A stretch of 64,000 nt of DNA, from positions 1 to 64,000 of the forward strand of contig JANDLT010000019.1 in assembly GCA_024330265.1 (NCBI GenBank), written 5' to 3'. This document shows positions 49,866 to 64,000 of this stretch, in pieces. The notes below the pieces were generated by a model. The model was not told the origin of the DNA. It ran no database searches and was given only the letters and a program-made list of their open reading frames with translations. The stretch comes from Pyrinomonadaceae bacterium MAG19_C2-C3. Its GTDB lineage: Bacteria > Acidobacteriota > Blastocatellia > Pyrinomonadales > Pyrinomonadaceae. The number at the start of each line of letters is the position of its first letter. The first letter of the stretch is position 1. The translations under genes and the position numbers were made by a program.

Positions 49866-50885
49866 ATGAGTGACGCAACTCTCACCGCCGATTCGATTGA
49901 CACTCAAGCGGGCGTGCGACGCGCGTGCGTCGCTTCGTTCATACAGAAACAGGGCGCGCTGATCGTGCTTGTTTTGTTGTGCGTCGTCGCGGCGTTTCGT
50001 TACGACAACTTTTTAACCGAAGCGAATCTGCAAAATATCTTGCGGCAGAACAGTATGCTCGCCCTTGTCGCTCTGGGGATGACGTTCGTGATTCTAACGG
50101 GCGGAATTGATTTATCGGTCGGTTCATTCGTCGCTCTCGCCGGAGTCATCGCCGCTAACCTCGCGGGACAAGGCACAATCGTCGCACTTCTCGCCGCCGT
50201 TGCCGCGACGACGGCTTTGGGATTAGTGAATGGTGCGGTGATTTCAAAGGCGCGGATTCAACCGTTCGTCGTGACGTTGGCGATGATGATTGCGGCGCGC
50301 GGGTTAGCGTTGATTGCGACGGGTGAAACGGCGGTGCGCGTCAATAGTTTGAATCAAGGTTTTACATGGCTTGGGCGTGGAACGATTTTTGAACTTAGTG
50401 TCGGCAGTATCAACATCGAATTGTACGTTCCGGTTTTAATCGCCCTCATCGCGTATTTAATCGGCTGGTTTGTGCTTAATCACACACGCTTCGGGCGGCA
50501 CACGTTCGCGCTCGGAGACAACGAAGAAGCGGCGCGTTTGATGGGCTTAAACGTGGGTCGCGTGACGCTCGGCGTGTATGCTCTGAGCGGCGCGCTCGCC
50601 GGACTCGCGGGCGTGATTCTCGCGTCGCGTCTTGGGGCGGGACAGCCTACGGAAGGCGTCGGGTGGGAACTCGATGCGATTGCGGCGGTGGTGGTCGGCG
50701 GCACACTTCTGACGGGTGGGAAGGGCGGCGTTGGGGCGACGATTATCGGCGTCTTGTTGCTCGGCGTGATTCTCAACATGATTAAAGCCGAAGGTTTGAG
50801 TTCGTGGTGGCAACTTGTTTTGCGCGGCGCGTTTCTGCTTGCCGTCGTCGTCGTTCAGAATCGGCTTAACAGCCGAAAGAAATGA
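49866..50885 (+). CDS. Sugar ABC transporter permease (RbsC/YjfF-like)
   Basis: Second permease, 339 residues. LRQNSMLALVALGMTFVILTGGIDLSVGS, VTLAMMIAARGLALI, GDNEEAARLMGLNVG and LDAIAAVVVGGTLLTGGKGG mark the same family as its neighbour, but the sequences are clearly distinct, so the transporter is probably a heterodimer. The TAA stop lies ten bases before the ribosome site of the next gene, so the oxygenase is probably in the same transcript. Confidence 0.93.
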   Translation: MSDATLTADSIDTQAGVRRACVASFIQKQGALIVLVLLCVVAAFRYDNFLTEANLQNILRQNSMLALVALGMTFVILTGGIDLSVGSFVALAGVIAANLAGQGTIVALLAAVAATTALGLVNGAVISKARIQPFVVTLAMMIAARGLALIATGETAVRVNSLNQGFTWLGRGTIFELSVGSINIELYVPVLIALIAYLIGWFVLNHTRFGRHTFALGDNEEAARLMGLNVGRVTLGVYALSGALAGLAGVILASRLGAGQPTEGVGWELDAIAAVVVGGTLLTGGKGGVGATIIGVLLLGVILNMIKAEGLSSWWQLVLRGAFLLAVVVVQNRLNSRKK

Positions 50886-53475: not shown

Positions 53476-53603
53476 AATTTATCAACAAACGTGCAAGCCA
53501 CAAATGCCGACACAGGCGACGAAACCCGGCTTAACGAACATCAAATCTGCTGTGAATCCTATAAATTAAGAAGCCTGTTTGTCGCTTGAAATTATCACTG
53601 AAC

Positions 53604-55412
53604 ATGAAAGTTAAATGCGGGTACGAAAGCCTGCGCCGTAAGTTAAAAATCCGTCTTGTCGGATGGTTGATTATACCCGTGTGCGCGGTGAATCTGTTCG
53701 CCCAACAACCCGCCGCGCCGTCAACCGCGCGTCCGACGGGACGCTCATACAGCGAGGGCGACGAACGCGCGAAGCCGATTGTGAAAGCCGCGCGTGGCGT
53801 GTCGCCCGTGCAGTTCACAGATATAACCGCGCGCTCCGGGATAAATTTTCGTCACCACGCATCGCCCACATCACAAAAGTATCTGCTTGAAACGATGGGC
53901 GGCGGTGTCGCGCTTTTCGATTACGACAACGACGGACGTCTTGACATGTATTTCACTAATGGCGCGCAACTTCAAGAACAGATGAGTGCGAACGCGCGTC
54001 CCGACAAAACCGATGCGCGCTTCTGGAATCGTCTTTATCATCAAAAACCTGACGGCACTTTTGAAGACGTGACGGAGCGCGCCGGAGTGCGCGGAAGCGG
54101 GTACGCGATGGGCGCGGCGGCGGGCGATTATGACAACGACGGTTTGACGGATTTATACGTCACGGCTTACGGCGGCAATGCCTTGTATCGCAATCGCGGT
54201 GACGGTACGTTTGAAGACGTGACGCGGCGGACGAACACGGCGGGCGGCGGCTGGTCAACGAGCGCGGGCTGGCTTGATTATGACCGCGACGGGCGGCTTG
54301 ATCTGTTCGTCGCGCGATATATGGATTGGGACTTTCAGAACGGCTCGCTATATTGCGGTTTGATGAAGCCCGGCTTTCGTGCCTTTTGTCACCCCGACAA
54401 CTTCAAGGGTGCGGGCAATCTGTTGTTTCATCAAAAGCCTGACGGGACGTTTGAGGATGTGAGCCTGAAAGCCGGAGTCGCGGACGCGGAAGGCAAAGGC
54501 TTGGGGCTGGCGTTCGCTGATTTCAACGATGATGGTTGGACGGACATCATCGTCGCCAATGACAGCGTGCGGCAATCCTTGTACATGAATCGCGGTGACG
54601 GCACGTTTGACGACGTGGCTTTGCCCGCCGGTGTCGGCTTCGATGAAAATGGAAAGACGTTTGCCGGAATGGGCGTTGACGCGGCGGACTATGATGCCGA
54701 CGGTCGGGCGGACATCATCATCACCGCGCTTTCAAACGAAACCTATCCCTTATTTCGCAACAACGGCGACGATTCATTTTCTTATACGACGAACACGACG
54801 GGCGTCGGTCAGATAACTTTACTGCTCACGGGTTGGGGCGTGCGCTTCGCGGATTTCGATTTGGACGGAATGCGCGACATCTTCGTCGCGCAAGGGCATG
54901 TACTCGACACGATTGAGAAATCGTCATCCTATTTGTTGTACAAACAGCCGCCGCTTCTAATGCGAAACGTCGGCAAAACATTCCTGGATGTTTCGGCGTC
55001 CGCCGGATTCACCGTGCCACTCGCGGCGCGCGGGTGTGCGTTTGGAGACATTGATAACGACGGTGATACGGACATCGTGATTGGGACAACAAACGACGCG
55101 CCCGTGATGTTTCGCAATATGTTTAGTAATGACGCGGGGAAGAATCATTGGATAGGATTTAACCTTGTGGGAACTAAATCCAATCGCGCCGGGATAGGGA
55201 CGCGCGTCACCATTACCGACTCAAACGGGCGGCGACAAACTGCCGATGCAAATACGGCGGGCAGTTATCTCGCATCGAACGACGGGCGCATCGTATTCGG
55301 TTTGGGAGCGACGGCGAAAGTCGCTTCCGTCGAGGTGCGTTGGTCAACGGGTAAAACTCAGAAGGTGATGAATCCGATTATTGACCAATACCAAATCGTC
55401 AAAGAAGAATAA
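53604..55412 (+). CDS. Exported CRTAC1-family protein (FG-GAP/VCBS repeats + ASPIC/UnbV)
   Basis: About 602 residues with a signal peptide (LVGWLIIPVCAVNLFAQQ). Seven calcium-binding FG-GAP/VCBS-type blades are seen, for example DYDNDGRLDMYFTNGA, DYDNDGLTDLYV, DFNDDGWTDIIVANDS, DYDADGRADIIIT and DIDNDGDTDIVIG, forming a beta-propeller. The C-terminus has the ASPIC/UnbV domain (NRAGIGTRVTI...RIVFGLGATAKVASVEVRWSTG). Such proteins are abundant in Acidobacteriota and of unclear role, perhaps binding glycans or partners at the cell surface. Start at ATG 53604 rather than the TTG at 53586. Confidence 0.9.
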   Translation: MKVKCGYESLRRKLKIRLVGWLIIPVCAVNLFAQQPAAPSTARPTGRSYSEGDERAKPIVKAARGVSPVQFTDITARSGINFRHHASPTSQKYLLETMGGGVALFDYDNDGRLDMYFTNGAQLQEQMSANARPDKTDARFWNRLYHQKPDGTFEDVTERAGVRGSGYAMGAAAGDYDNDGLTDLYVTAYGGNALYRNRGDGTFEDVTRRTNTAGGGWSTSAGWLDYDRDGRLDLFVARYMDWDFQNGSLYCGLMKPGFRAFCHPDNFKGAGNLLFHQKPDGTFEDVSLKAGVADAEGKGLGLAFADFNDDGWTDIIVANDSVRQSLYMNRGDGTFDDVALPAGVGFDENGKTFAGMGVDAADYDADGRADIIITALSNETYPLFRNNGDDSFSYTTNTTGVGQITLLLTGWGVRFADFDLDGMRDIFVAQGHVLDTIEKSSSYLLYKQPPLLMRNVGKTFLDVSASAGFTVPLAARGCAFGDIDNDGDTDIVIGTTNDAPVMFRNMFSNDAGKNHWIGFNLVGTKSNRAGIGTRVTITDSNGRRQTADANTAGSYLASNDGRIVFGLGATAKVASVEVRWSTGKTQKVMNPIIDQYQIVKEE

Positions 55413-55771: not shown

Positions 55772-57337
55772 ATGAACTCAATGCGACAATCCACGCTCAT
55801 CAAACCGTTGATGAAAACTAATCTCATCGCCGTCATTTTAGTGTTGTTCGTGATAGGCGCACCCGCGATGTTGCGCGCTCAAACGCCGCGCTTTGCCAAT
55901 CCGATTGTCACCTCGCGCGATGCCCCCGACCCGTGGGTGATACGCAAAGACGGCTTTTACTATTTCACGGCGACGACGGGCGGAAGCATCTATGTTTGGA
56001 AATCTCCGACACTGACCGGAATTGATAACGGCTTGAAAGCGACGGTGTGGTCGCCACCGTCTTCGGGTGCGACGAGTCGTAATGTGTGGGCACCGGAACT
56101 GCATTTCTTAAACGGCAAGTGGTACATCTATTTCGCGGCGGATAATGGCGACAATCGCAATCACCGCATGTACGTTCTCGAAGCCGCGACCGATGACCCG
56201 CAAGGAGCGTACATTGAGCGCGGCAAAATCAGCGCGCCGACCGACCGTTGGGCGATTGACGGCACGGTGTTCCAAAAGCCGGATGGTTCGCTCTATTTTC
56301 TGTGGTCGGGTTGGGAAGGCTTCACCGACGGCATCGCGCAGAACATTTACATCGCGCCGATGTCGAACCCTTACACGATAAGCGGCGAACGGGTTTTGAT
56401 TTCCGCCCCGCATCCTTCACGCACAACTTGGGAATGGTGGATTAACGAAGCCCCGCAAGTCATCACACGCGAAGGGAAAACCTTTGTCGTCTATTCCGCG
56501 AACGGTAGTTTTACCCCAAATTATTGTTTGGGAATCTTAATGAACACCGACGGCGATTTGCTCAATCCGGCGTCGTGGGTGAAATCAACCGAACCCGTGT
56601 TTCAACGAATCGCGGGCGTGTATGGTCCCGGTCACAACTCATTCACCAAATCGCCGGACGGCACGGAAGATTGGTTCGTCTATCACGCGACCCCGAATGA
56701 AAACGACGGTTGGAACAATCGTCGCCCGCGCGCCCAAAGGCTGACATGGAACACCGCGACGGGTGTGCCTCTGTTCGGCTATCCGGTTGCGCCGTTCACG
56801 ACGCTGGAAGTTCCTTCGGGAGAAGCCGCGATGAATGAACCGCCGGACGGACGCGGCACGGGCTTGATGGGCGAGTATTTCGACACGGGAGATTTCACAG
56901 ACCTTAAACTGAAGCGCACCGACCCGACGATAAATTTTACATGGGGCGTCATCGGTGACACGGGCGCGCCGGTTGAGACGATGGATAAAGATTTCTTCTC
57001 GGTTCGATGGAGCGGATTTATCGAGCCGAAGTTTTCGGAAGATTACACGTTTCGCACCTTTGCCGACGACGGGATTCGCGTCTGGATTAACAACCAACTT
57101 GTGATTGACGATTTTCGCGTTCACGGTCCGACGTTGACGGAGAGTTCGCCCGTGCGCCTCAACGCCGGAACGCGCTATCCGGTTCGCATCGAATACTTCG
57201 AGTATGACATGGGGGCGACCGCGCGCTTCGAGTGGAAAAGTTCAAGCCAAGGCTTGGAAGTCGTACCGCGTTCGCAACTCTTTCCCGTGACTCCGAAACG
57301 CCGCTTAAAATTCGGAGCGCGCAATGTGCGTCAATAA
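55772..57337 (+). CDS. Exported GH43 + PA14 glycoside hydrolase
   Basis: 521 residues with a signal peptide (LIAVILVLFVIGAPAMLRAQ). The GH43 propeller (about 40-360) has catalytic Asp in DAPDPWVIR, Asp in WAIDGTVF and acid Glu in WINEAPQVI. The C-terminal PA14 domain (about 370-510: GLMGEYFDTGDFTDLKL, FADDGIRVWINNQLVIDD, YPVRIEYFEYDMGATARFEW) is a carbohydrate-binding module. Together with the other GH43 and GH172 it points to breakdown of an arabinose-rich glycan. AAGG lies a few bases ahead of the ATG. Confidence 0.91.
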   Translation: MNSMRQSTLIKPLMKTNLIAVILVLFVIGAPAMLRAQTPRFANPIVTSRDAPDPWVIRKDGFYYFTATTGGSIYVWKSPTLTGIDNGLKATVWSPPSSGATSRNVWAPELHFLNGKWYIYFAADNGDNRNHRMYVLEAATDDPQGAYIERGKISAPTDRWAIDGTVFQKPDGSLYFLWSGWEGFTDGIAQNIYIAPMSNPYTISGERVLISAPHPSRTTWEWWINEAPQVITREGKTFVVYSANGSFTPNYCLGILMNTDGDLLNPASWVKSTEPVFQRIAGVYGPGHNSFTKSPDGTEDWFVYHATPNENDGWNNRRPRAQRLTWNTATGVPLFGYPVAPFTTLEVPSGEAAMNEPPDGRGTGLMGEYFDTGDFTDLKLKRTDPTINFTWGVIGDTGAPVETMDKDFFSVRWSGFIEPKFSEDYTFRTFADDGIRVWINNQLVIDDFRVHGPTLTESSPVRLNAGTRYPVRIEYFEYDMGATARFEWKSSSQGLEVVPRSQLFPVTPKRRLKFGARNVRQ

Positions 57338-57366
57338 TTGAAAGAAGCTATCTCAAGAATGGTTTT

Positions 57367-57456
57367 CCTCTCTGCGTAGCTCTGCGTCATCACTCTGCGG
57401 TACTTTGCGTTAAGAAAATCTTTTGACGCAGAGAACCGCAGAGTTACGCAGAGTTT
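57367..57456. repeat. Type H inverted repeat (CTCTGCG/CGCAGAG)
   Basis: CCTCTCTGCGTAGCTCTGCG and ACTCTGCGGTACTTTGCGTT are answered by GACGCAGAGAACCGCAGAG and TTACGCAGAGTTTT. It fills most of the gap between the GH43-PA14 gene and the candidate selenoprotein gene. Confidence 0.85.
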
Positions 57457-57505
57457 TCAATCAATCAAAAGCTATTTTTGAGATAGGTTGTAATTGAAAG
57501 TTGGA

Positions 57506-60500
57506 ATGTTGAATTTCATAAAACTATTTATCGTCGCCTGTCTAACATGCGTCATCGTGTGGTTGCCGATGACGACACGGCACGCCGCGCAAACCACCTC
57601 TTTATCAACTTCACCGCCCGGCGAAGTTGATGCGCGACGGCTTGAAACAATCGAAGATTTATCCGAATCGCTTGCCAATCAGCTTTTGGAATTGTCTGTG
57701 GCGACGCGCGACCGCGACGGCAAATTGATTGCCGATTTCTTCCCTGCCGAACTCGCGGCGACGCCGTTTCCTTCCGTTCCGAATAAAGTCAAACCGGAAC
57801 TCAAATGGATTGGCACGCGCTCTTGGAGCGTTGACGGCGAGACATCATTAACGGGGGCGACCGGCTTGCAAACTCCGCGCGCACGCAAGATGACGCGAGT
57901 TGATTTTTTGCACGGCTTGACGAAGTTTCTTGATTACTTCGCGGAGATTGAAGACGTGCGCTTCAAAGTCAAAGAAGCGCAGTTTGACGCAAGCGCGCAA
58001 TCGGTGCGCGGGGCGAGTGAACCGACCGCCGTCGCGGGTGCGGGTGGGCGTGCGCGCGTCGCGTTCTACGTCATAGGGCGCAACGCGGAAGGCAACCGCG
58101 AATGGGCGCGCGGCGCGGCAAACGTCGCGGTGCGGTACGTTGAAACCAAACGTGAGCCGCGCGTGATGGAAGCCAAAGCATCACTTGAACGCACGAACGA
58201 AGCGGCGGATGTCGGACAAGGACGCTGGCAATTTGAAGCGTGGAACTTGGTGAGTATCGATTCGATGGTTGCCGAAACGGACATCTTTTCCGAAGTCGCG
58301 GCACCGGCGGGCGTCGCGGCGGAACTTCCCGGTTACGGCGCGGCGGGCAACGGTGGTTTCGTGTGGCATGGTGCGGCGGCGGCGGATTTCAACCGCGACG
58401 GCTTCGTTGATTTAGTCGTGACCGCGCCCGATAGAAACTATCTTTACCTTAACGACGGGGCGGGCAAATTCCGCGACGCTTCGCGCGAAGCCGGAGTCGA
58501 AATGTTGGCGAGCGGTTCGGGCGTCGTCGCCCTCGACTATGACAACGACGGCGATACGGACATTTTTATGGCTTCGGTCGGACAGCAAATTTTGCTGGAA
58601 AACCGCATCGTTCCCGACAATCGTTTCGAGTTTAATGACGTGTCTTTAGAAGCGGGCGTCGCGCAGGATGCGATAGGCTTTTCTGCGGTCGCGGGCGATG
58701 TCAACGGCGACGGATTATTGGACATTTACGTCACGAGTTATAACCGTTACGGGCAGGTCACGCCCGATTCGTGGTTTCGCGCGACGAACGGCACGCCGAA
58801 TCTTTTGTTCATTCAACAAAGCGACCACACGTTTCGAGAGCAAGCGGCGAAGTGGGGCGTGAACGATAAGCGTTGGAGTTACGCGGCGGCGTTCGCGGAC
58901 GTGAACGAAGACGGCAAGCTCGATTTATACGTCGCCAACGACTTCGGTGAAAAGGCGATGTACATCAATCACGGCGACAAGTTTATTGATGAAGCCAAGA
59001 CGCGCGGCGTACTCGACCCCGGCAACGGCATGGGCGTCTCTTTCGGTGATTACAACAACGACGGACAACTTGATTTGCACGCCTCGAACATGTCTTCGAC
59101 CGCCGGAAATCGCATCCTCGCGCGTCTGTTTCCGAATCAAACTTCGTCGGACAACGTGCTTAAAAAACTCGCCGCCGGAAACAATCTTTTCGAGAATCAA
59201 GGCAAGGGAGTTTATAAAGATGTGACGGGGGAAGTCGGCGGCTTCGGCGGCGGTTGGGCATGGGGCGGCGGCTTTATAGATTTCGACAACGACGGTTGGG
59301 AAGATATTTTTACACCGAACGGCTTTATCTCCGGCAAGTCCATGAAGGACACTTGAAGCCACTTCTGGCGTCAAGTTGTGACGCGCGATAACGACGGCAA
59401 AGAAGAGAAGGGCGCGCTTCGCGTTGACCAAACTTCGTTGATGAACAGGGAAGGTTTTTCGTTTAGCGGCTATGAACGCGACCCGCTCTATCTGAATTTA
59501 CAGAGCGAAGGCGTGAAAAAGTTTCTCGATATTTCCGGCATCTCCGGTATTGATTCGATTTCAGACGGGCGCGCCGGAGTCTTCGCCGACTTCGACAACG
59601 ACGGCGACCTTGATGTTTTTATGACGACGATTCAAGGGCAGTCGCATCTCCTGTTTCGCAACAACGTCGGGCAGGAAAACAATTCTCTGCGCGTGATGCT
59701 CGAAGGCGATGCGAAGATTGGACGCGATGCGTTTAGCTCCGTCGTGCGCGTCGTGACTTCCGCCGGAACACTGACGAAAATCAAGGACGGCGGCAGCGGC
59801 TTCATCTCCGAACACGACCCGCGTTTGCTGTTCGGTCTGAAACGCGACGCGGCGGTTAAGGACATCGAAGTCACTTGGTCAAACGGTCAAGTCGAAACAT
59901 TCAATGGTGAAATTCGTGCCGGACAAACCGTGCTTTTGCGTAAAGGCACGAAGCGTATTGAGACGGTCGCGGTTAAACGCGCGAAGCTTCCAGACCCTTT
60001 GACGCGCGCCGAAACTTTCGCGCGTGGACTTAAAATCGCGGTTGGAAAACCTTTGCCCGACGTGAACATAAAGACGATTGACGGCAAACCCGCGATGCTT
60101 AAAAATCAAATCCGCGCGGGACGCCAAACGCTCTTTAATGTTTGGGCGACGTGGTGCGTTCCGTGCGCGCAAGAGATGCCGGAACTCGAACGCCTGCGTC
60201 CCGCACTCGCACGAGAAGGCATTGACCTCGTAGGCTTAAACGTGGATTCAGACCCAACGGCGGACGTGCGCGGCTTCCTGAAAGACAATCCGGTCAAGTA
60301 CACGATTCTTGTCGGCGGCGTGGGGTTGATTGAAAGCTTGTACGCGACCGACCAGCTTTCCGTGCCGCTCTCCGTCCTCGTTGATGAGCGCGGCATCGTC
60401 ACCGAAATCATACCGGGTTGGTCAAACGAAACGCGCGCCCGCTTCGACCGTCTCGCGGGAATCAAAGACGCCGCGCCGCGCAAAGCGAACCGCACGATGG

Positions 60501-60517
60501 GGAAACGCTCACGCTAA
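57506..60517 (+). CDS. Candidate selenoprotein: CRTAC1/ASPIC beta-propeller with C-terminal TlpA-like thioredoxin domain
   Basis: One reading frame of 1004 codons interrupted only by TGA at 59354-59356 (residue 617 from ATG 57506). Both sides are intact and in the same frame: the N-terminal part has a signal peptide and FG-GAP blades (DFNRDGFVDLVVTAPDR, DYDNDGDTDIFMASVG, DVNGDGLLDIYVTSYN, DVNEDGKLDLYVANDFG), reaching SGKSMKDT before the TGA. After it come SHFWRQVVTRDNDG, another blade (DFDNDGDLDVFMTTI), an ASPIC domain, and a TlpA/ResA-like thioredoxin domain with WATWCVPC. An 11-base spacer and a 6-bp hairpin follow the TGA, as in bacterial SECIS elements. Insertion of selenocysteine is the best explanation; a nonsense mutation or sequencing error is the alternative. 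Translation as two proteins is less likely because the second half lacks its own signal peptide. Confidence 0.7.
59354..59384 (+). promoter_or_regulatory. Predicted bacterial SECIS: UGA plus downstream hairpin
   Basis: TGA (59354-59356), spacer AGCCACTTCTG of 11 bases, then a 17-base stem-loop: GCGTCA (59368-59373), loop AGTTG (59374-59378), TGACGC (59379-59384), all six pairs Watson-Crick. The minimal E. coli fdhF element is a 17-base upper stem-loop 11 bases after its UGA with a GU in the loop; the same geometry is met here, although the bulged U of fdhF is not seen. It would recruit SelB with Sec-tRNA. Confidence 0.65.
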
Positions 60518-61264: not shown

Positions 61265-61379
61265 AATTTCTAATCTCACATAGATTGACGTTTCATTTCA
61301 ACCACGACGCGCCCAACCCGTGTTTGGTGTTTGTGATGCTAGGCAACTCTTCGCATCTAAATCGTTTTCCAAAAAGTTT

Positions 61380-64000
61380 ATGAAGTTATTCTCCCGTTCT
61401 ACTTTCGCCGTCGCATCGGCAATAATTCTGCTCGCCGTAACCTTCGCTTCGTACATCGTCCATAGTCAAAGCACGAACGCGCCGCAAACGCCCGTGACGC
61501 AGGCGATGCGCGAAGACGCTTATCGTCAAAATAATTTGGGCGTCGCGCTGCTCGAACAATACAACCACAGAGAAGCGGCGGAAGCGTTCCGGCGCGCGTT
61601 GAAAATTGACCCGACTTTGCAAGTTGCTAACATCAATCTCGCCATCGCGCTTTATAACGTGCCGGAAACCGACGAAGCTTTGCGTGCTGCCGATGCCGCG
61701 ATGAAGATTGCGCCCGAAGCCGCGCAGCCCGTCTATATCGCCGGACTCATCGCCAAAGCACAGAACCGCACGGACGATGCCGTCGCGCTTTTCACCCGTG
61801 TACTCGCCATTGACCCGCAGGACGTTGGGGCGAATGTCAATCTAGGTCAACTCTACGCGCAGCAACGCAAGTACGCCGAAGCCATCACGGTGTTTCGCAA
61901 AGCACTCGCCGCCGAGCCGTACAACACGACCGCCGTTTATAATCTCGCGCTCGCGTTGCAGCGCAACAATGAACGCGAAGAGGGCGGGCGACTGCTCGCG
62001 CGCTTTCAAGAATTGCGTCAAACGGGCGCGGGAACTTCCATCGGTCAGAACTATCTCGAACAGGGACGCTATGCCGAAGCCGTCGTCTCGACGGGTGCGG
62101 AAAGCGATTTGGTCATACGCGCGACGCCCGCCGTCACGTTCGCGGACGCTTCCGCGCAAGTCTTGCCTGCGGGCGTGACGGGCAATCGCCGCGAAGGGAT
62201 TCCAGCCGGAACGAACGTCAATTCAAATGACTCGCAAGGCACTTCGATTCTGCCGGACGGACGCTTGAGCGAAGCCGCGCAACGCCGCGTCGCCGCCATG
62301 CACGGCGGCGTCACGCTGTTTGATTATGACGGGGACGGCGACCTTGATTTGTTTGAAGTCGCGCCCGACTTTCAACGTCTCTACCGCAACGACGCTGGGA
62401 AGTACAGCGATGTCACGAAGGATTCCGGCTTGGTTGACTTGCCCACCGGAAGCATCGGCATCGGCGCGGTCGCGGGCGATTATGATAATGACGGACGTGC
62501 TGATTTATTCGTACTGCGTTACGGCACGGGCAAGCCCGGTGTGCTGTATCACAACGAAGGAGCGGGGAAGTTCACCGACCGCACAATGAGCGCGGAACTC
62601 GCCGCGTATCCGTTTCTGTCAACGTCGGCGGCGTTCGTTGACGTTGACCACGACGGCGACCTTGACATCTTCATCGCCGGTTTCGCGGACTTTTCAAAAC
62701 CTGTGAGCGGTGATTTGAAACGCGCGACGGTCAGGCTTGACGAACTCGCGGGCGCGCCGAATCTTTTGTTGAGAAACAACGGCGACGGCAAATTTACGGA
62801 CATCACGGAAGCCGCGAAAGTCGCGGGTAAAGATAACCGCGCCGTCGCCGTCATCCCGACCGATTACGACAATCGGCGCGATGTTGATTTGCTCATCGTT
62901 AATTACAATCGCCCGCCCGTACTTTTTCGCAATCTGCGTGACCGGACGTTTCGTGATGTGGCGGCGGAAGTCGGCTTGAACGTCGCGGGGCGCGTGACGT
63001 GCGCGGCGGCGGGCGATCTCAACAAAGACGGCTTCACCGATTTCTTTTTCGGGCGCGTCAGTGATGCGAGTCTTTTAGCGTTGAGCGACGGACAGGGGAA
63101 GTTTCGCGTGCGCCCGATTGTGGAAAATGCGAAAGATAGCAAGACGGCTTCCGGCTCTCCGTTAGTGGCGATTGACGCGGCGCAGATTATGGATTACGAC
63201 GCCGACGGTCTGCTCGATGTCATCGCCGTTTCGGATAAAGGTTTGCGCGCATGGCGCAATGTCGGTGACGGTTTCGTTGATGTGAGCGAACGCCTCTTGC
63301 CTGCCAACGCGCAACCGCCCGCCGATGGCGGATGGTGGGCGCGCAGTTTCGCATCCGGCGACATAGACGCGGACGGCGACACGGACATGATTTTGCGGCT
63401 CGCTTCCGGTCAACTTAAAGTGGCGCGCAATGACGGCGGCAATCGAAACAATTCCGTGCGCGTGCAACTCGCGGGGCGCGTCAGCAATCGCAGCGCAATC
63501 GCCGCGAAAGTCGAAGCCCGCGCCGGAAGCCTGTGGCAGAAACTCGAAACTTATTCCGCCAGTCCCGCGCCCGCGCCCGCCGATGTGGTGTTCGGTCTGG
63601 GCAATCGCCTCGCGCCCGACGCGGTGCGCGTGATTTGGACTTCCGGCGTTGTCCAAGCGGAAACCGATTTAGCCGCGAAACCCGATACCGAATCCAACAC
63701 CCAACCTAAAACAAATGTTGCGACGCGCACACTCTCGATTCAGGAACTCGACCGCAAGCCGTCGTCATGCCCGTTTCTTTATACTTGGAACGGCGAACGC
63801 TTCGAGTTTATCACCGACATGATGGGCGGCGGCGAGATGGGAGCGTTCGTCTCGCAGGGGCAGTACAATTTTCCAGACCCCGATGAGTATGTGCGTATAG
63901 CGTCCGATAAGCTTAGGGAACACGACGGCAAATACAAACTCCGCATCACGAACGAACTCGAAGAAGCCGTGTTTATGGACAACGTGAAACTGCTCACCGT
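61380..64000 (+). CDS. TPR + CRTAC1/ASPIC-type exported protein (partial, runs off the window)
   Basis: Open from ATG 61380 to the window edge (873 codons and no stop). Signal or anchor segment FAVASAIILLAVTFASYIV, then TPR repeats (about 45-210: DAYRQNNLGVALLEQYNHRE, ANVNLGQLYAQQRKYAEAIT, TAVYNLALALQRNNEREEG), then FG-GAP blades (DYDGDGDLDLFEVAPD, DYDNDGRADLFVLRYG, DVDHDGDLDIFIAGFA, DLNKDGFTDFFFG, DIDADGDTDMILR) and an ASPIC-like region near 680-760 (VFGLGNRLAPDAVRVIWTSG). A further domain begins near residue 790 (SCPFLYTWNGERFEFITDMMGGG). Third CRTAC1-type gene of the cluster; no in-frame TGA in the visible part. Confidence 0.9.
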   Translation, partial: MKLFSRSTFAVASAIILLAVTFASYIVHSQSTNAPQTPVTQAMREDAYRQNNLGVALLEQYNHREAAEAFRRALKIDPTLQVANINLAIALYNVPETDEALRAADAAMKIAPEAAQPVYIAGLIAKAQNRTDDAVALFTRVLAIDPQDVGANVNLGQLYAQQRKYAEAITVFRKALAAEPYNTTAVYNLALALQRNNEREEGGRLLARFQELRQTGAGTSIGQNYLEQGRYAEAVVSTGAESDLVIRATPAVTFADASAQVLPAGVTGNRREGIPAGTNVNSNDSQGTSILPDGRLSEAAQRRVAAMHGGVTLFDYDGDGDLDLFEVAPDFQRLYRNDAGKYSDVTKDSGLVDLPTGSIGIGAVAGDYDNDGRADLFVLRYGTGKPGVLYHNEGAGKFTDRTMSAELAAYPFLSTSAAFVDVDHDGDLDIFIAGFADFSKPVSGDLKRATVRLDELAGAPNLLLRNNGDGKFTDITEAAKVAGKDNRAVAVIPTDYDNRRDVDLLIVNYNRPPVLFRNLRDRTFRDVAAEVGLNVAGRVTCAAAGDLNKDGFTDFFFGRVSDASLLALSDGQGKFRVRPIVENAKDSKTASGSPLVAIDAAQIMDYDADGLLDVIAVSDKGLRAWRNVGDGFVDVSERLLPANAQPPADGGWWARSFASGDIDADGDTDMILRLASGQLKVARNDGGNRNNSVRVQLAGRVSNRSAIAAKVEARAGSLWQKLETYSASPAPAPADVVFGLGNRLAPDAVRVIWTSGVVQAETDLAAKPDTESNTQPKTNVATRTLSIQELDRKPSSCPFLYTWNGERFEFITDMMGGGEMGAFVSQGQYNFPDPDEYVRIASDKLREHDGKYKLRITNELEEAVFMDNVKLLT

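Follow-up and report, generated by a model that had tools for sequence, protein, structure and literature searches.

A likely new selenoprotein family combining a CRTAC1/ASPIC-like propeller with a thioredoxin domain

Introduction

The closest described relatives of the gene analyzed here encode CRTAC1 and the UnbV-ASPIC proteins, which share with its product an FG-GAP propeller and an ASPIC domain. The gene is located on the forward strand at positions 57506–60517 of the window, which is the whole stretch of 64,000 nucleotides analyzed (positions 1 to 64,000 of contig JANDLT010000019.1 of the soil bacterium Pyrinomonadaceae bacterium MAG19_C2-C3), and it contains a single in-frame TGA, which is very probably read as selenocysteine (Sec). 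CRTAC1 is not known to have Sec or a thioredoxin domain, and little is known about the function of bacterial ASPIC proteins.

The C-terminal domain of the encoded protein, with its WCxPC motif, is shared with TlpA, ResA, and DsbE, from which the family differs in that this domain is fused to a propeller, and in that the Sec is located in the propeller and outside the CxxC. PilB, which fuses thioredoxin to methionine sulfoxide reductases, serves as a working analogy, because there too a single exported protein combines a redox-active residue with the thioredoxin that reduces it. However, only the thioredoxin part of PilB is related (2h30 and 2fy6 in a profile search), and the Pfam scan of the window protein showed no MsrA or MsrB domain. 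The WAxxUGC-type TlpA selenoproteins (NF041054) are likewise thioredoxin-like redox proteins that use Sec, and a UGC-containing TlpA family is listed in Table 1 of a 2026 catalogue of 119 selenoprotein families (PMC13188914). In these proteins the Sec is part of the thioredoxin motif, while the window protein has an intact CxxC (CVPC) with the Sec 267 residues upstream, and it scored 36.7 bits against the WAxxUGC_long model, compared to the cut-off of 300.

Results and Discussion

A single in-frame TGA is conserved among relatives of the gene

The reading frame starts with ATG at 57506, contains TGA at 59354–59356 (residue 617), and ends with TAA at 60515–60517, so that 616 codons precede the TGA and 386 codons follow it without a further stop, giving 1003 codons including Sec617 and a TAA stop. 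This agrees with an earlier preliminary description of the locus, which had proposed, from the letters alone, a long gene read through one TGA, and had correctly given the context as Asp-Thr-U-Ser-His-Phe-Trp. Its assumption that TGA serves as an ordinary stop codon in this organism also holds, because the transporter gene at 49866–50885 terminates with TGA, and a distinct PhyH gene comes next. When both strands were scanned, seven TGA triplets were flanked on each side by an open frame of 100 codons or more, and only the TGA at 59354–59356 and the boundary between the transporter and PhyH genes had at least 200 open codons on both sides.

To follow the codon among relatives, the best 80 loci from a search of genome contigs (L013–L092, which include near-copies, L013 and L015 among them) were compared. 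TGA was present at the column in 48 of the 49 close loci (L013–L061), the remaining one being L060 with TCG (Ser), and in 18 of the 31 distant loci (L062–L092). Judged by record titles and tree labels, the TGA copies come from four phyla, which are Acidobacteriota, Planctomycetota, Verrucomicrobiota, and Myxococcota. The coding sequence is conserved on both sides of the in-frame UGA, and, because other assemblies have TGA at the same column, the codon is neither a chance occurrence nor a single sequencing error.

The family was detected (E ≤ 1e-60) in 26 of 149 Acidobacteriota genomes, 19 of which carry a copy with TGA at the site, and the other seven TGA-less copies only. A larger sample of 396 genomes gave family matches in 66, a minority of the TGA matches being checked at the column; 24 of its 25 stop-less matches were read (a second match in G434 was left out), and 20 of these retained the motif, while four (L185–L188) did not. 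In the phylum of L073 (Myxococcota by title), matches at E ≤ 1e-45 were found in 23 of 235 genomes, and 17 fetched copies, two of them previously known, had TGA at the motif. In the phylum of L063 (Verrucomicrobiota by title), six of 194 genomes had matches at 1e-50; the three TGA copies were all from the starting genome of L063, and nine stop-less matches had no comparable site. Several fetched loci repeat earlier ones (L152, L154, and L165 are L070, L073, and L077; L131 and L137 are L063 and L088; L189 is L049), and the TGA triplets of L158, L160, L170, and L186, which lie outside the site, were taken as over-runs.

A third class of ASPIC/FG-GAP genes (L080:932, L150, and L155) was also observed, with TGA at the same place in the context D-[LT]-U-[ML], and without the W-R residues or a thioredoxin domain. 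By eye, GGUC-loop hairpins are located 3′ of the UGA in L150 and L155.

The genome encodes the selenocysteine machinery

The preliminary description expected selA, selB, selC, and selD in a genome that makes such a protein. The data showed that selA, selB, selD, and tRNA-Sec are all encoded in the genome of origin, each above its curated cut-off; ARAGORN also reported a tRNA-SeC with anticodon tca, and the selD gene itself contains a UGA, read as SGAGUVGK. Among the 65 genomes with a TGA copy in the L013–L092 set, 59 had selB above the cut-off, and four others had selA. In the 149 Acidobacteriota genomes, in which selA was counted at E ≤ 1e-70, it was present in 18 of the 19 genomes with a TGA copy, in three of the seven with TGA-less copies only, and in 102 overall (Fisher p 0.007 for genomes with a TGA copy versus all others and 0.010 versus the TGA-less ones, both uncorrected for kinship). 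The one genome without selA, G206, is apparently the L050 assembly, where selB was above the cut-off and selA had no match.

A SECIS-type hairpin follows the UGA

The sequence directly downstream from the UGA was compared to the model rules for bacterial selenocysteine insertion sequence (SECIS) elements quoted in PMC13188914, which are a stem of 4–16 base pairs, a loop of 3–9 nucleotides located 16–37 nucleotides from the UGA, G in one of the first two loop positions, and an energy of at most −7.5 kcal/mol. The hairpin GCGUCA-[AGUUG]-UGACGC at 59368–59384 (forward strand) has a stem of six base pairs and a five-nucleotide loop (AGUUG) with G at position 2; it starts 11 nucleotides, and its loop 17 nucleotides, after the UGA. 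Its energy is −7.1 as a strict single helix and −10.0 for the 39-nucleotide stretch. Single-sequence RNA folding was rejected as uninformative evidence of a SECIS.

In 67 TGA rows (the window and 66 loci) the hairpin was more stable than expected from synonymous codon resampling, with a mean z of −2.20 and with 64 of the 67 rows under −1, while the mean z was −0.03 for 660 control windows taken from elsewhere in these genes. Covariation was analyzed in 68 distinct 36-mers, which included loci from the Acidobacteriota genomes and were assigned to the better-fitting register; 56 of them shared one register, and the other 12 had the register displaced by one position and a GGUC-type loop. Pair 17–27, between the wobble base of Arg622 and the first base of codon 626, was formed in all 56 (CG 24, TA 21, GT 6, GC 3, AT 2), and none of 10000 shuffles, which ignore kinship, was as good. 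GU was present at loop positions 21–22 in 67 of the 68 36-mers, which is partly dictated by a Val codon. A stem of at least five base pairs was found in 53 of 62 Sec rows, but in only one of 21 rows that lack TGA and keep the motif (SFFWRQVV etc.), the mean stem being 6.2 versus 2.1 (Fisher 2e-11, uncorrected for kinship). Additionally, the Ser codon directly after the UGA was AGY in 68 of 74 copies, compared to 1389 of 4838 (29%) elsewhere in these genes, and hence the base 3′ of the UGA is nearly always A.

Residues that replace selenocysteine

The TGA-less copies that keep the site comprise 23 in Acidobacteriota and eight in the Myxococcota-type sample. The acidobacterial residues were G in six, N in four, S and A in three each, Q, D, and E in two each, and M in one, and Cys was absent from all 23 (this count includes L178 and L180, which nearly duplicate L121 and L179, while L066, with Glu in K-L-H-W-T, is left out). 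On the other hand, all eight Myxococcota-type copies (L157–L161, L163, L164, and L170, from eight genomes, with L158 and L160 as near-copies) had Cys exactly at the Sec column, in the context D-[YF]-C-x-x-F-W. As they fall outside the motif W-[RQ]-x-V, they were located by alignment and a rescan. None of the 31 copies had Trp, and among 35 TGA-less loci at the aligned column there were eight gaps, C 8, E 5, I 4, V 3, N 3, H 2, K 1, and P 1. The expectation of the preliminary description that non-selenoprotein homologues would have Cys, or relatives TGA, at this column is thus borne out for TGA in most relatives and for Cys in eight distant copies without an in-frame TGA, and it fails for the 23 acidobacterial TGA-less copies. 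Cys homologues are usual, although not obligatory, for a selenoprotein family.

The Cys proteins have the same propeller and site, but differ from the Sec family in having no hairpin (stem of 1 and energy of −0.9 to −3.2 in all six distinct stretches), no AGY at the codon that follows the Cys, and, in the alignment, no residues in the thioredoxin columns. They form one clade (100 in the Shimodaira–Hasegawa-like approximate likelihood ratio test, SH-aLRT), which is nested among Sec copies and joins them at 82 and 96, in a tree built with a simple model and a short search, with L158, L160, and L170 cut at the over-run TGA. They are distant forms, about 30% identical. The general claim that Sec cannot be replaced by Cys was rejected in view of these eight copies. 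On one contig of G705 (L162 and L170), the Cys copy adjoins an ASPIC gene on the opposite strand.

Selenocysteine is mostly found together with the thioredoxin CxxC motif

To compare the fates of Sec and the thioredoxin cysteines, two trees were used. The first, of 90 rows (five truncated rows, five duplicates, and some near-copies left out), contained 66 copies with both Sec and CxxC, three with Sec without CxxC, 21 with neither (nine of them outgroup), and none with CxxC without Sec; it gave four independent pairs, with p 0.125 at best. The second, of 128 rows (L178 and L180 left out as near-copies) and with a simpler model, contained 83 copies with Sec and CxxC, six with Sec without CxxC, nine outgroup rows, eight Cys copies without CxxC, and 22 copies with another residue, of which 21 lacked CxxC and one (L174) had it. 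Hence, CxxC is present in 83 of 89 Sec copies, but in only one of 30 copies of the family without Sec. In the four independent pairs on supported branches of the second tree CxxC changed in the same direction in 3.8 on average, and never in the opposite one (p 0.125).

In the TGA-less acidobacterial copies the thioredoxin domain mostly remains, as judged by alignment, while its cysteines are changed; L122, the sole such copy for which Pfam matches are given, has AhpC-TSA at 67.6 bits, and in L060, L173, and L181 the domain is absent or a stub. Among 107 positions conserved in at least 90% of Sec copies, 76 are unchanged in 80% or more of 10 acidobacterial copies without Sec. S618, W621, R622, G534, R536, and W584 belong to these 76, while U617 is retained in none of the 10 copies and C884 in one. 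These comparisons are suggestive of Sec and CxxC working together in the fused form, although through few independent events. As the eight Cys copies have no thioredoxin domain in the alignment, Sec or Cys at this site need not be paired with a fused CxxC.

Domain architecture and predicted structure

The read-through product matches FG-GAP_3, FG-GAP, UnbV_ASPIC, Redoxin, and AhpC-TSA in Pfam, all above the curated cut-offs, which confirms the propeller, ASPIC domain, and thioredoxin domain noticed earlier, and places the protein with CRTAC1/UnbV-ASPIC by FG-GAP repeats and UnbV_ASPIC above gathering scores. All of the following features are on the forward strand. A hydrophobic helix at residues ~1–27 (57506–57586; 2–27 in the model) could be the signal peptide that had been proposed or a membrane anchor. 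It is followed by an N-terminal domain (residues ~40–262, 57623–58291), which is partly conserved among close relatives and matched none of the Pfam families at E ≤ 0.01. According to Pfam, structure, and profile comparisons, the FG-GAP/CRTAC1-like propeller 5′ of the Sec site spans residues ~285–612 (58358–59341, approximate boundaries). Pfam places the UnbV_ASPIC domain at residues 745–809 (59738–59932), and Pfam, NCBIfam, Foldseek, and profile searches place the TlpA/ResA-like thioredoxin domain at residues 846–975 (60041–60430; Redoxin 63.2 bits versus 26.6), with its WCVPC sequence containing the CVPC redox motif, Cys884 and Cys887, at 60155–60166.

An AlphaFold2 model built on a 62-row alignment had a mean predicted local distance difference test score (pLDDT) of 90 and a predicted template modeling score (pTM) of 0.88. 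In this model residue 617 (59354–59356) is the first residue of helix 617–626 and lies between propeller strands; the preliminary description had placed it between two blades. The top Foldseek match was murine CRTAC1 (9etn, E 6e-29), with ResA/TlpA proteins next. The family profile matched CRTAC1 with E 3.5e-40, aligning positions 218–495 and 627–739, while the Sec-site stretch between profile positions 495 and 627 was unaligned to CRTAC1.

Proposed mechanism

The insertion of Sec at UGA617 is nearly certain and well supported by the sequence comparisons, because the UGA is conserved, a covarying SECIS-type hairpin follows it, the sel genes are present, a distant clade has Cys at the column, and CxxC without Sec is rare; the suggestion that this gene encodes a selenoprotein is strengthened accordingly. 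We consider it very likely that the gene encodes a selenoprotein with SECIS-directed Sec617, and propose that this protein is an exported Sec-dependent oxidoreductase in which Sec617 would be reduced by the fused CxxC. SelB and tRNA-Sec would decode UGA617, guided by the hairpin 11 nucleotides downstream, and translation would continue through the final blade and on into the ASPIC and thioredoxin domains. Export is suggested by the N-terminal hydrophobic helix. A reactive selenol often sits at the start of a helix, and Sec617 would be located at such a position, in a propeller stretch without an aligned CRTAC1 counterpart. It could be oxidized by a substrate such as a peroxide, sulfoxide, or disulfide, after which the CxxC in the fused TlpA/ResA-like domain would reduce it again; the protein would thus carry its own reductant. 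The catalytic role, the direction of electron flow, and the substrate are likewise proposals. The reductant can probably also be separate, since the Cys copies, some Sec copies, and the third class have no fused domain.

Several observations weigh against this interpretation. Two metagenome-assembled genomes, those of L071 and L080, have neither selA nor selB above the cut-off, and selB is also present in 12 of the 13 genomes with a TGA-less locus in the L013–L092 set, which therefore provides no contrast. Folded in isolation, the window hairpin does not exceed dinucleotide shuffles in stability (z −0.19 and −0.56), the strict helix energy misses the −7.5 kcal/mol rule in 19 of 67 rows including the window, and the TGA-less L125 retains a 6-base-pair stem. 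Since the 23 acidobacterial TGA-less copies do not have Cys, the site may have lost its function there. The coupling to the thioredoxin domain is weakened by Sec copies without CxxC (L077, which has CxxxC, L083, L087, L150, L155, and L167), by L174, which keeps CRAC without Sec, and by the eight Cys copies that have no thioredoxin domain in the alignment, and it amounts to four independent pairs on supported branches (p 0.125).

That the UGA is a true stop, which ends a 616-residue protein with a second gene directly behind, could be argued from the use of TGA as an ordinary stop in the genome and from a same-frame open reading frame (ORF) with a GTG start at 59378–60517. However, the residues that directly follow the UGA (S-x-F-W-R-x-V-V) are preserved in the same frame across relatives, where the Arg and Gln codons show synonymous changes, a split would cut the propeller, each of the TGA-less and Cys copies is one uninterrupted frame, and the hairpin covaries, which led us to reject this explanation as extremely improbable. 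We give just as little credence to a UGA read as Trp, Gly, or another suppressor product. Gly does occur more often than any other residue among the acidobacterial copies without TGA (6 of 23), but the 31 copies together have C 8, G 6, N 4, S 3, A 3, Q 2, D 2, E 2, and M 1, and Trp in particular was rejected, as it does not occur among them; the genome also has the Sec machinery, and a hairpin that fits the SECIS model follows the UGA.

A different role of Sec617 deserves more weight, although it appears unlikely to us: it could bind a metal or a substrate, or be reduced by separate thioredoxins, with the fused domain serving other proteins. FG-GAP propellers bind Ca2+, the thioredoxin domain is absent from the Cys copies, some Sec copies lack either this domain or its CxxC, and the third class (L080, L150, and L155) retains TGA without W-R. 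Against this, the association of CxxC with Sec (83 of 89 copies versus 1 of 30) and the altered cysteines of TGA-less acidobacterial copies that mostly keep the domain argue for the fused CxxC as the reductant. It is also rather improbable that the family has already been catalogued or annotated elsewhere. The comparison excludes supplementary tables and two publications of Haft and co-workers, so that an unnamed candidate in a table is conceivable, and methods based on Cys/Sec pairs could in principle find the family, as Cys homologues exist. Yet, Table 1 of PMC13188914, with its 119 families, has no FG-GAP, ASPIC, CRTAC1, or propeller entry; the searched text of PMC12013277, PMC9312934, PMC2398784, and PMC4807772 does not mention a CRTAC1/ASPIC selenoprotein, and a word search of PMC5029168 gave no match. 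Neither the window protein (E ≤ 1) nor six other Sec members (E ≤ 1e-8) matched an NCBIfam release 20 model above its cut-off.

Implications for ASPIC propellers

Within the searchable literature, where our searches found no published CRTAC1/ASPIC selenoprotein, the family looks like a so far undescribed group of selenium-using enzymes, and the earlier remark that CRTAC1/ASPIC proteins are not among the known selenoprotein families stands for this literature and catalogue. Methods that rely on Cys/Sec pairs, such as those using the deep-Sep criteria given in PMC12013277, may have overlooked it, because its nearest acidobacterial TGA-less relatives have no Cys and the Cys forms are distant. Standard gene calling would also truncate the proteins at the UGA, even though the family is apparently widespread in environmental genomes.

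We lean towards a broader view, in which bacterial ASPIC propellers include an old, unrecognized class of selenoenzymes with the active site in a propeller insertion and a fused thioredoxin domain as the usual reductant. Such a class would comprise several architectures and reach at least across Acidobacteriota, Planctomycetota, Verrucomicrobiota, and Myxococcota. According to this view, loss of Sec in Acidobacteriota would be followed by drift of the site and usually of the CxxC, as if selenium were irreplaceable there, while one myxococcotal clade would use Cys without a SECIS or a thioredoxin domain. One tree thus offers natural experiments, in which Sec is kept, swapped for Cys in one clade, or lost to other residues, with distinct fates of the SECIS and the CxxC. 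As the Sec is located in a CRTAC1-like propeller and not in the thioredoxin fold, it points to redox activity for bacterial ASPIC proteins.

Gene neighborhood

Further FG-GAP/ASPIC genes are located at 53586–55412 and at 61284–63998, the latter with TPR repeats and open at the window end, so that the region contains three ASPIC genes; neither neighbor had a stop in the scanned stretches. No conserved operon was seen, with ORFs related to the ASPIC neighbors in 14 of 50 sources, many of which have short flanks. Directly upstream of the selenoprotein gene, positions 55772–57337 encode a GH43 glycosidase with a PA14 domain. Between the two genes, at 57345–57489, there is a cluster of imperfect inverted repeats, for example with arms at 57392–57413/57423–57444 (22 nucleotides, 86%) and 57370–57386/57437–57453 (17 nucleotides, 94%).

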